A stretch of DNA of 64,000 nt. It comes from Chaetoceros tenuissimus (taxonomy: Eukaryota > Bacillariophyta > Thalassiosirophyceae > Chaetocerotales > Chaetocerotaceae). The position numbers and the translations under genes are program-made. Position 1 is the stretch's first letter. Each line of letters starts with the position of its first letter. Below, one piece after another: positions 21,055 through 28,620 of this stretch. The notes under the pieces are model-generated. The model saw only the letters and a list, made by a program, of their open reading frames with translations. It searched no databases and was not told the DNA's origin. The stretch covers positions 744,001 to 808,000 of the forward strand of contig BLLK01000022.1 of the NCBI GenBank assembly GCA_021927905.1, given 5' to 3'.

Positions 21055-24000
21055 ATGCCTCGTGCAAGAAGGAGCACAGCCAAAGCAATTGACTACTCGA
21101 AAGTGCAGGATTTTTCAGATGATGACATTTTTGAAGATTCCGCACATGATGACCCTGCTCCAACCAAAAGACGTGGACGTCCTAGGAAAAGTGAAGCTGC
21201 AGTTGACTACGGAGTAGCACCTGATACAGATGGTTTCTATCAACCAGACGCAAAACCAAGATTCTTTGAAAAGGGATACGATCCGAATTTGCCTCATATT
21301 AGAGATAGATTCACCTTCATGCCTGAGCTTGAAGCCGATGGAAGTCCTAAAGTTGATCTCATCGTTGGGAGACGCGTCATTAGTAGTGACAAGGACAATG
21401 AGGAAGATTCCGAACATGGTAATTTGGAAGGATCCAAAAACACGAGAAAAGGCAAAAAAGACAAGAACTACGAAGAAAAAGGTCATGTGGAATATGAATA
21501 CTTGATCAAGTACAAGGGAGTATCTTACCTACATCTTGAGTGGAAAACTGGAGGTGATCTTGAGAGTATGAACAAATCTGCAAAGAACTTGTATAGAAGA
21601 TACTTGAAAAAGTTGCAGACGAACCAGGATGAAGATCTAGAGGACCCCGAATTTGATCCAGCATTCATTCAGCCCCAACGTGTTGTAGATCAAGACGAAC
21701 ACGAACTCATTGTTGAAATTAGTGATGAAGAACTACTTGAATGGGAAAAAGAAAAACGAAAGGAGGAAGCAGAAATGTTCAGCGACGAAGAACCTGAAAG
21801 AGAGGTAAACTCGATGGACCCTCTTGTCAGCACTGTGAAACTAGAGAATGGAACACAAAATGAAATTGAAGGTATGGCACTTTCTTTTTTTACATTTCAC
21901 GGTTTTTCGTCTTTGAACTACAATTAACACTTTTTTGTAGCTATTCCAGATGAAAATATTGGCGAACCTGGAACTTTATCGAAAGAAGAAATTCAGAGAA
22001 TATTGAAAAAAGATGGACCATACTACCCTCTTATCCCAGGTTGTGACAATCCATATCGTGATGGATATGTCACAGAACCTCCAAAGAAACCCAGAGCCTC
22101 TTACTTATTTTTCCAAGGCGTCTATCGTTCTGTGTATCAGAAGAAGAATCCAGGTGCAAGTGTAGGACAGGTCATGCAATTACTTGGAGATGTATGGAGA
22201 AATCTAACTGAAGAACAACAACTCCCTTTTGTTGAACTAGCAAAAGAAGAAGCCATTGAATTCGAGAAACAGAAAGTACTTCTAGAGAAAGCACAAAGAC
22301 CTAACGGAGTATGGCAACCCATCAGACGTTGTCTCATGGTGCTGGAAAAATTAAGCAAAGATCCTTTGGCTGAAATATTTCTCGAACCTGTTGACTTGAA
22401 TGACTTTCCTGATTACATGGACTACATCGATACCCCCATGGATTTAGCAACTGTCAGAGAAAAAGCAAAAAACAAAAAATACCAGGGTCCTGAAAATTTT
22501 GCCCGTGATATGAGAAAGATTTGGAATAATTGCAAAGTCTATAACCAGCATGGTAGTGCCATTTGGTATGTCGCAGATTACATGTCAAAACAGTTTGAAC
22601 GTTTGTATACCGCATGGGTACTTGCTTTTCGTGATAAGTTTGTGCGTTGGGCAATTCCATCCGCAAGGCCTTGGGAACCATCTTGTCGAGTTTGTGACGG
22701 AAAATGCAAGACGGCAGACGAGAAAATGGTCTTGTGTGATCATTGCGAGTCTCACAATGGCCTTGGTTGTTTGAAGGCTCCTCTGAAAGAAGTCCCAAAG
22801 GGAGTTTGGCATTGCAATGACTGTAAGAAGAAAATGCAGAGGGACCCCGGAACAAGACTTCCGTCTGCGATGTCTGAGATTGCAGCAAGAAAAAGAGCGG
22901 AGTTGGGTGATATCCCAACAAAGAAAATAACCCAGACAAAGTATTTGGTGAAATGGGCAGGACTTGGATATGAACATTGTACATGGGAGACAAAGGAAGA
23001 TATCAATGATGATGCACTCATTGCGGAATTCCAAAGGGAAAATAATATGACCCCAGATGAACCGAACCTCCCTGTAACAGAAGTTGACAAAATTTTCGAC
23101 AGTATTATTCATTTAAATGCAGAAAATGCAGGTGGAAATTATGAAATTCCACAACTGCGTAGTCAGCTTTATTCGCAAACTAGAGGTTTTCAATTTGCCA
23201 AGTTTGGTATGGAGCTTCCCTCATCGCTTTGCACAGAATGTGGACCACTGACAGCTGGAAGCTCAACGAATGATGCAAACGTTATCATTGCAGGTGGACC
23301 GCAAGATATGCCTCCTTTGTTAACAGGAGAATATGATGCTATGATTCCAGTGACAGAGAGCGGACTTTTGATGAATGTAGGAGAAATGGATGGCACCGTA
23401 GCTTTTTTGGGGTACAGACAAAAGCCCGACGGTACTAAGGGTCCTGCTGAAATGCAAAAACTAATCAAAAATGTTCATGATAAAATCATTGCTGTAAATG
23501 GTGTCAGTACAGTTAATAAATCTTTCCAAGACGTGATACAGCTATTGAAACAAGACAGTAGTGCCAAATATGCAAAGATGCGATTTTTGTCCGTCAAATT
23601 TGGAGATATTGATGTGAATTCTACAAGCATGGGTATGGTGGGAAGGTTTTCAACTGAAAATGCAAAGAGTACATTTAAACGGGAAAGGAGACTCTTACTC
23701 CTTAAGAGACAATTTGAAAACGAAGATGAGCACTACGAAGCCGATGTCGGAGAGGAAAGTGATGGTAGTGTCGATGGTGACGAGTCAGAAGATTCCGATG
23801 ACGAAGCAAGCATGGCATCATTTGAGCAAGTCAGTGATGACGAAGATATGGTTATACCCAATAACTCTCTACCAGTGCAGAACCTAAACAGTGCAAGTAT
23901 CAACGAAGAAAAGAAGACTGAGGCGAAAGTTGCAGTTTCTAATGAGTTGGAGAAAGGGGTCAAAGATACTGAAGAAACACTCATTCATCAGGAAAATACA

Positions 24001-27000: not shown

Positions 27001-28620
27001 CGAAGAAGATGTCGTGATGAGACAAAGATCTTCGGTAGAAGAGGGAATGACGCCCACACTCCTGAAGTAAATGAAAAGCTAATGATTCGAAGTAGCAAAA
27101 AGAGACGACGCAAACGGGGAAGTGATTTAGGAGGCAGGAAAAGAGGAAGACGGTCAAACGATGGTTCTGACTCTGAAGATGATTGGTATGAAGCAGAAGA
27201 TGATCTGTACGATTCCAAGCAGATCGCTCGCGTTAGTAGAAAAGAGTCTAGGAGAAGAAGAGCATGGGGTACTGGGAAAGGAGCGAGTAATGCTATGTGG
27301 CCATCTTTACCACGCGACAAGGTCAAGGCTGTTCTTACTTCTCTTATGGACAAGGTGTTGCAAAATGACGAGATTCAAAGTGGAGGACTTTTCTCTCGGC
27401 CTGTTCCAAGAGACGATTTCCCTGAATACTATGAAATGGTGAAGAATCCCATGGATTTTGGCACTATGAAACAGAAAGTAGAAGATGGACTTTATAGGTC
27501 AGCGAATGCACTGCAAAAAGATTTTGTACTTGTAATGAAAAACTGCATGCAATTCAATGCACCAAATTCTGATATTGTCAAAGAGGCCAAGAATCAGGCC
27601 ATATTGGTCCCTGGTTTTCTTAGAGATGCAGCGGCAGAACACCATCTATTCCTTTCGGAGGATGGAGCTGTCCTTGAGGTGTATTCAGACGATGAAAAGG
27701 ATACGAAGAACGGTGATGAAAGGAAGAAACGTGGAAGGAAGCCAGGGCCAAAACCGAAAGATGTTACAACTACAAAATTAGTCCGTTGTCTTGAATGTGA
27801 ACCGTGCCTTCGTAGTGACTGTGGGGAGTGTGAAGCATGTAAAGACAAGAAAAAGTTTGGAGGGACTGGAACTAAGAAAATGTCATGTATTCATAGGAAC
27901 TGCAAAAATTTGAGGGAAGAAGAGGTTGTTGTAAAGAAGAAGAGAGGACGTCCAAAGAAGCCAAGAACTCCAACTCCACTAGATGCTGATGGTGACTTTA
28001 ATGAAGATGAAGCAGTATCGTCAAATACCAATGGCTACACAAATGATGACACAGCAATTATTGATAGAATACCAAAAAAGAAGAAACTAGCTGATGTTGA
28101 TGTAGGATCAGATGCAGAGGAGGGGGAAATCATTGAAAGCAGTCCTCATGATGTTTATCTCAATGTAGATACATTTGTTCAAGAGCGTGAACAACTTGAT
28201 GGTACTTTTGCAGCTGCCAAGGCTCACTTCACGAAAAGAGGTCCTTGGATTCTTCCACCTAGTTTGAAGTCTCATGCTCCAGATGTGATCAAGGCTGTTA
28301 TCACCATAATGAGAAAACTTGATACTTTTGAACTATTCCAGAGACCAGTAGATGAAGATTCTGCACCAGGATACTTTAGCATTGTTTCTAGACCAATGGA
28401 CTTTGGAACAATGCTGAAAAAATTGGAAAATGGATCTTATGGAGCAGACACAATTGTAGAAGTTTACAATGACTTCCTGCTTGTTTTTGAGAACTGTGAG
28501 ATGTACAACAGGAATAATGAAACAGTCTTGGCTGAGGCTGCTCGTGTCTTTGCTTTACTACCTGAGACATTCTCAAAGGCTTGCGTAGCAATCCTTCATC
28601 AGCAAAAGAATGAAATTTAG
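21055..28620 (+). CDS. Giant CHD-like SNF2 chromatin remodeler with bromo, PHD, HMG, PDZ-like and CXXC domains
   Basis: Exons 21055-21871, 21941-25879 and 25949-28620 (two 69-bp GT-AG introns) encode 2475 residues. The domain order is as follows. An AT-hook (KRRGRPRK, ~39) is followed by a chromodomain half (YEYLIKYKGVSYLHLEW, ~150). An HMG box follows (~319-385, PPKKPRASYLFF), then bromodomain 1 (~400-500) and a PHD finger (~521-567, CRVCDGKC ... HCNDC). Next come a second chromodomain (~604-640, KYLVKWAGLGYEHCTWE) and a PDZ-like segment (~740-820). The SNF2 ATPase starts at ~1199 (DEMGLGKT ~1224, DEAH ~1336, MTGTPLQNN) and runs through HELICc (STRAGGVGINL, RCHRIGQ). Bromodomain 2 (~2035-2140), an AT-hook, a CXXC zinc finger (~2196-2240), another AT-hook and bromodomain 3 (~2360-2460) complete it. 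It is a nuclear nucleosome remodeler. Paired chromodomains before SNF2 suggest CHD, but the rest departs from known CHD layouts. Confidence 0.95.

Follow-up and report, generated by a model that had tools for sequence, protein, structure and literature searches.

We consider it likely, taking this identity and the mechanism proposed below as one reading, that a gene in the 64,000-nucleotide stretch of the diatom Chaetoceros tenuissimus analysed here (contig BLLK01000022.1, positions 744,001 to 808,000; hereafter the window) encodes a CHD-family remodeler that uses ATP to act on nucleosomes, has its relatives in animal CHD6-9 and is of a form specific to stramenopiles. The gene lies at 21055-28620 on the forward strand, and its three exons encode 2475 amino acids. 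Along this chain the domains follow in the order chromodomain 1, HMG box, bromodomain 1, atypical PHD finger, chromodomain 2, PDZ domain, SNF2 ATPase, helical domain, bromodomain 2, CXXC zinc finger and bromodomain 3. The motor and the family are ordinary; the architecture is unusual.

The exons (21055-21871, 21941-25879 and 25949-28620) are separated by two introns of 69 nucleotides each (21872-21940 and 25880-25948), both with canonical GT-AG ends, and together give a stop-free spliced frame of 2475 codons from the ATG at 21055 to the stop codon at 28618-28620. Intron 1 separates chromodomain 1 from the HMG box. Intron 2 interrupts the sequence for the Helicase_C domain, so exons 2 and 3 must join. 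Two MMETSP transcripts of relatives that are marked complete (P0001 and P0003) each span 100% of the query. The position of intron 2 and these whole-length transcripts support a single chain, as an earlier account of this DNA made from its letters alone (the sequence-only reading) had proposed. Two neighbouring genes might in principle have been taken for a single one, the readers then belonging to different proteins, given that chromodomain 1 is the sole domain of exon 1 and an intron follows it; the position of intron 2 and the relatives' transcripts, however, lead us to reject this as very improbable.

Pfam profiles scored above their curated whole-protein cut-offs for the chromodomain (two stretches), the HMG box (1e-10), the bromodomain (three stretches, total 1e-64), SNF2 (6e-74), Helicase_C (3e-24) and CXXC (1e-10); the PHD finger, at 21.6 bits, fell under its cut-off of 24 and is recognised also by its ligand pattern. 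N-terminal to the motor are chromodomain 1 (21490-21618, in exon 1; residues ~146-188, limits set by eye), the HMG box (22081-22275; residues 320-384), bromodomain 1 (22330-22575; residues 403-484), the PHD finger (22678-22830; residues ~519-569), chromodomain 2 (22921-23037; residues 600-638; found by Pfam and the genome search) and the PDZ domain (23329-23589; residues ~736-822). The ATPase comprises lobe 1 (24727-25605; residues 1202-1494) and the Helicase_C lobe 2 (25741-26148; residues 1540-1652), and is followed by a segment common to CHD6-9 (26293-26547; residues ~1701-1785), a conserved helical domain (26776-26997; residues ~1862-1935), bromodomain 2 (27343-27591), the CXXC finger with its KFGG motif (27772-27903; residues 2194-2237) and bromodomain 3 (28303-28539). 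Pfam, the genome search and an AlphaFold2 model agree on both C-terminal bromodomains, and a fold search adds to this for bromodomain 2. Every domain named in the sequence-only reading (CHD-type core, HMG box, PHD finger, three bromodomains and CXXC) is therefore present, and to these we add the PDZ domain ahead of the ATPase and the location of the HMG box, bromodomain and PHD finger between the chromodomains, which are ~410 residues apart.

Two of these assignments required more than a single Pfam search. Of the two chromodomains, the first has the weaker support: it is the second Pfam stretch, for which the Pfam listing gives no coordinates, and a six-frame search of the genome listed only chromodomain 2 for this gene. 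Chromodomain 1 is kept in homologs, and is homologous to the first chromodomain of CHD8 (6e-4) and to that of the stramenopile relatives. The PDZ domain is sub-threshold in Pfam from the single sequence; a profile of 13 homologous pieces (13 of 19 that were cut) matched the PDB with a best E-value of 2.7e-11, the best 60 of 387 matches bearing names that we recognised as PDZ proteins or that indicate no other fold, and the AlphaFold2 model has the strand and helix pattern. For the helical domain, a profile made in the same way (nine of 17 cut pieces) gave one weak and unconvincing PDB match (E 0.55). Some oomycete relatives also have this helical domain after the ATPase. Pfam gave no match to a BRK domain after the ATPase in the window protein up to E 0.1.

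The family was assigned first from the ATPase core. In a tree of 43 sequences (45 cores, less two SRCAP rows), the window protein fell among 16 diatom-type rows (88/78), which formed a clade with four other stramenopile-type rows (100/99). This clade joined two CHD paralogs of C. tenuissimus and animal CHD6-9 (100/100), with CHD1 next (89/82) and CHD3/4, plant CHR4 and Mit1 outside, such that the window core is not inside the CHD1 or CHD3/4 clades. On contig C54, one paralog shows two chromodomain matches next to each other; the own-genome loci L003, L007 and L008 are in neither of our trees. The post-ATPase segment aligned with animal CHD6-9 at E-values of 8e-15 to 8e-11, whereas the listing, which ran up to E 10, contained none of the seven CHD1-like, CHD3/4-type, Mit1 and SNF2 rows that we looked for. 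The unusual architecture and the separated chromodomains might suggest an SNF2 remodeler class distinct from CHD, but such a class is scarcely credible beside a core that nests with CHD6-9 and away from SNF2 and a post-ATPase segment held in common with CHD6-9, and both ATPase-core trees reject it. Nonetheless, of the chromodomain features expected of a CHD protein, we found two chromodomains N-terminal to the ATPase, the first of them weak, but not their tandem adjacency. Because the chromodomains are not adjacent, we class the protein as a derived variant with a CHD core rather than a typical CHD member. Similarly, we place it as a relative of the animal CHD6-9 subfamily and not a member, because it has no BRK match while the animal proteins P0048-P0052 carry PF07533, which we take to be BRK. 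The sequence-only reading was right on these points: the protein is of CHD type and unlike the CHD proteins of animals or plants.

Our first protein search returned 177 matches, of which we used the best 120; P0001-P0047 are stramenopile-type relatives, and the diatoms named among them are Seminavis, Nitzschia, Thalassiosira, Mayamaea and Entomoneis. For rows without names we assigned the diatom or stramenopile label ourselves, and CXXC states were judged by eye as canonical, degenerate or none. Five diatom-type homologs among the listed matches share the full domain order, and the remaining full-length ones keep that order but have no canonical CXXC or, in a few cases, no PHD finger. A second search, with P0045 as query, gave 83 new proteins (P0121-P0203) among the best 120 of 7898 matches, including proteins from Phytophthora, Pythium, Aphanomyces, Albugo, the brown alga Ascophyllum nodosum, Triparma retinervis and the labyrinthulids Mucochytrium and Hondaea. 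The core of the architecture (chromodomain, bromodomain and PHD finger, chromodomain, PDZ, ATPase) reaches the oomycetes and the brown alga. Both chromodomains were found in 46 of the 83 new rows, and in 39 of these 46 a bromodomain and a PHD finger lie between them; three have only the bromodomain there (P0157, from Triparma, P0175 and P0202), one has neither (P0192), and in three labyrinthulid-type rows (P0158, P0161 and P0163) the chromodomains are separated by nothing but a gap of 76-77 residues. Of the 62 rows with bromodomain, PHD finger, chromodomain 2 and ATPase, 54 also gave a PDZ match.

A second tree, made by a quick method with 51 rows, added 19 of the 83 new proteins and left out 13 of the 45 earlier cores (two SRCAP rows, P0004, P0005, P0009, P0018, P0053, P0054, P0066, P0078, P0081, P0082 and L006). 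It joined 35 stramenopile-type rows (97) but did not settle the branching order of the labyrinthulid, oomycete and ochrophyte groups among them. The ochrophytes (99) contained a group (100) of the diatoms with Triparma, P0040 and P0039, beside the brown alga and its relatives. A partial protein labelled as from Batrachochytrium salamandrivorans (P0170) grouped with the labyrinthulids (97), and may reflect contamination or mislabelling. Because this tree leaves that order open, we took the order in which labyrinthulids branch first from the accepted phylogeny of the organisms. Given that other CHD proteins and the labyrinthulid relatives have adjacent chromodomains, the simpler reading is that the bromodomain-PHD block was inserted between them; its loss in labyrinthulids is the alternative.

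The HMG box has a narrower distribution. It was found in 35 of the 37 rows among P0001-P0047 that have chromodomain 1 and bromodomain 1, and the two rows lacking it (P0045 and P0047) fall outside the diatoms. Outside diatoms, P0040, which groups with Triparma, has a Pfam match below the cut-off (7e-4), and the Triparma protein P0157 has a partial match (3.4e-5, to a profile built in part from P0040); the rest of the 83 new rows gave no match. Among the listed rows, the HMG box and the bromodomain-CXXC-bromodomain tail are seen only in diatoms and their nearest relatives. A C-terminal PHD array is found in 49 of the 83 new rows, including those from oomycetes, the brown alga and labyrinthulids, and the diatom C-terminus consists of a bromodomain, with or without CXXC, and then a further bromodomain. 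In the Triparma protein, Pfam detects one bromodomain and the CXXC, phmmer detects the other two bromodomains, and no PHD finger or PDZ domain was found. We infer from these distributions that a stramenopile form would have arisen with the bromodomain-PHD block between the chromodomains and PDZ ahead of the ATPase, and that the lineage of diatoms and Triparma would also have gained the HMG box beside that block. This lineage has the bromodomain-CXXC-bromodomain tail where other stramenopiles have the PHD array.

Residues that the motor and the acetyl-lysine readers require are intact. Conservation was counted in an alignment of 48 rows, using only rows with a letter at the position. The Walker A Lys (45 of 47 rows), DEAH Glu (43 of 43) and motif VI Arg (38 of 39) are present in the window protein, as is the acetyl-lysine-binding Asn of all three bromodomains (47 of 47 rows for bromodomain 1, in which it is Asn474, 31 of 32 for bromodomain 2 and 31 of 31 for bromodomain 3). 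The PHD finger, by contrast, lacks the C4HC3 ligand set, with Gly in place of the canonical His and an extra Cys528 that may substitute for it; 41 of the 48 rows have the Cys without the His, two have the His without the Cys (P0045 and P0047), one has neither (P0040) and four have gaps. At the two cage positions compared per chromodomain, which we presume to be equivalent to those of HP1 and CHD1, the residues are Y and V in the first chromodomain and W and L in the second, which makes methyl-lysine reading by either doubtful. Hence the earlier suggestion that the chain reads methylated histones is not demonstrated, the PHD finger also being atypical. The zinc cysteines and KFGG motif of the CXXC finger are intact, its nearest PDB relative is KDM2B, and reading of unmethylated CpG is plausible.

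AlphaFold2 modelled the exon 2 part with a predicted local distance difference test score (pLDDT) of 83.8 and the exon 3 part with one of 71.7. Bromodomain 1 of the exon 2 model superposes on the BPTF bromodomain (1.2 Å over 105 columns), and BRPF1 and BRD1 bromodomains lead the list for exon 3. All 50 matches listed in each of the two fold searches are bromodomain-containing entries, with no structural match to the PDZ or CXXC domain among them.

The CXXC finger has a patchy history. Both flanking bromodomains are present in 29 rows from the first search; six of these have a CXXC with KFGG (five diatom-type rows and P0039), four have a shortened version without KFGG and 19 have none. On a 30-row tree that includes the window protein, these three states need three changes, versus 10.2 in shuffles, and we read the pattern as that of an old CXXC that is probably decaying in other diatoms. 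Four of the 83 new rows have a CXXC (Triparma P0157, P0146, P0153 and P0156). Within the 41.0 Mb C. tenuissimus genome, a six-frame search, which exon-split copies could escape, found only one CXXC match, on this gene, along with 17 matches to the DNA methyltransferase family and 35 to the bromodomain. This genome would appear to combine a CXXC reader on a remodeler with DNA methyltransferase genes. CpG observed/expected in the window is 0.65, but with TpA just as low (0.62) this value gives no firm indication on methylation. The best match to a chromodomain in the genome is at another locus (L016, G000:C14:298337-298471), in an open frame of 2779 amino acids with no SNF2 match listed nearby.

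In the most likely mechanism, nucleosomes are slid along the DNA or spaced by the SNF2 motor. The three bromodomains would anchor the remodeler to acetylated histone tails, and the HMG box and CXXC finger would anchor it to linker DNA or to unmethylated CpG. In CHD proteins the chromodomain pair would act as a gate on the motor, as it does in CHD1, and a bromodomain-PHD block in the hinge between the two might couple tail binding to motor activity. Our confidence is high for the identity of the protein, moderate for the ligands of its readers and low for gating; any action of the readers on the motor is inferred, as is any partner of the PDZ domain. Binding of the PDZ domain to the protein's own C-terminus is not supported, as C-termini are not conserved.

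Several observations weigh against this reading. The PHD finger has lost its canonical His ligand. The CXXC finger has Met after the conserved Lys where KDM2 has Gln, so its CpG preference may differ, and it would not be essential to the family, because 19 of the 29 homologs lack it. The arrangement of the domains is modelled without confidence (predicted template-modelling score, pTM, 0.49 for exon 2 and 0.35 for exon 3), and the CBP/p300 entries that lead the exon 2 fold list by E-value superpose only in parts (root-mean-square deviation 11-28 Å). A weak alignment through the post-ATPase segment is seen with human CHD1 as well, so this segment does not by itself single out CHD6-9.

Some of these points would fit an ordinary CHD6-9-like remodeler whose readers are mostly leftovers, the extra domains lending a weak general affinity for chromatin without gating. 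Degradation or absence of the CXXC in 23 of the 29 homologs, the rewired PHD ligands and, if the gene models are right, the four diatom-type rows in which no PHD finger was found (P0014, P0020, P0024 and P0037) are what such a history would leave behind. We nevertheless think this rather unlikely, given the near-invariant bromodomain Asn and the retention of the bromodomain-PHD block in most of the new rows with both chromodomains. A stronger version of the remodeler reading, in which the hinge block makes the motor depend directly on acetylated tails and, wherever a diatom has kept the CXXC, this chain provides the main or sole CXXC-based reading of unmethylated CpG, is unlikely. If true, one protein would tie DNA methylation, acetylation and nucleosome position together, replacing several subunits of animal complexes. 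A histone reader within the chromodomain pair, with living relatives that have and lack the insert, would also offer a natural set for studying reader control: labyrinthulids without the insert, oomycetes and the brown alga with bromodomain and PHD finger, and Triparma and diatoms with the HMG box and CXXC in addition. With the sole detected CXXC of the genome on a remodeler, and its counterpart degraded or absent in other diatoms, the putative link between methylation and remodeling could be compared between close species.

Neighbouring frames at 17384-20017 on the reverse strand encode an ABC-ATPase with a ferredoxin-like part and an AIM24-like protein. Downstream, 29095-30727 holds a DUF1764 protein on the forward strand and a protein with three helicase-associated (HA) domain stretches on the reverse strand.

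Among known systems, animal CHD6/7/8/9 (CHD subfamily III) share the ATPase core and post-ATPase segment; they differ in having adjacent chromodomains and a BRK domain, and the Pfam lists of P0048-P0052 contain no HMG box, bromodomain, PHD finger or CXXC. The bromodomain followed by a PHD finger recalls the CBP/p300 module, although there the module sits beside an acetyltransferase, and the pair could not be superposed as a unit (at least 11 Å). The CXXC finger resembles that of KDM2B and KDM2A in its Cys pattern and KFGG motif, but theirs is on a demethylase rather than a remodeler. The closest published form is oomycete, the "Chromodomain-containing protein (D)" PITG_03401, listed in Table 2 of Matari and Blair (2014; PMC4030286) and not discussed in section 5 of that paper. 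In the table, its bromodomain, PHD, chromodomain, SNF2 and Helicase_C, together with the bracketed entries Chromo at the start and PDZ before SNF2, follow the same order as here, with a PHD / zf-HC5HC2H array at the end and no HMG box, CXXC or post-ATPase bromodomain pair listed. The Phytophthora infestans relative in our set (P0168), perhaps that same accession, has bromodomain, PHD finger, chromodomain, PDZ and ATPase; chromodomain 1 was not found in it. The sequence-only reading had seen here a candidate for an undescribed type of machine, a claim that prior description of the same architecture across other lineages would undo. This is in part the case, as the oomycete core form is in print in that table. 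For the diatom form, the titles and opening lines of abstracts listed from open-licence PubMed Central papers contained no description, some of the listings showing a small share of the matches (15 of 115 and 15 of 798 papers). Given that the full order occurs in five diatom-type homologs and the core in oomycetes and a brown alga, the claim of a new machine type is not sustained: the remodeler family is a known one, and the protein is a variant of it particular to its lineage.

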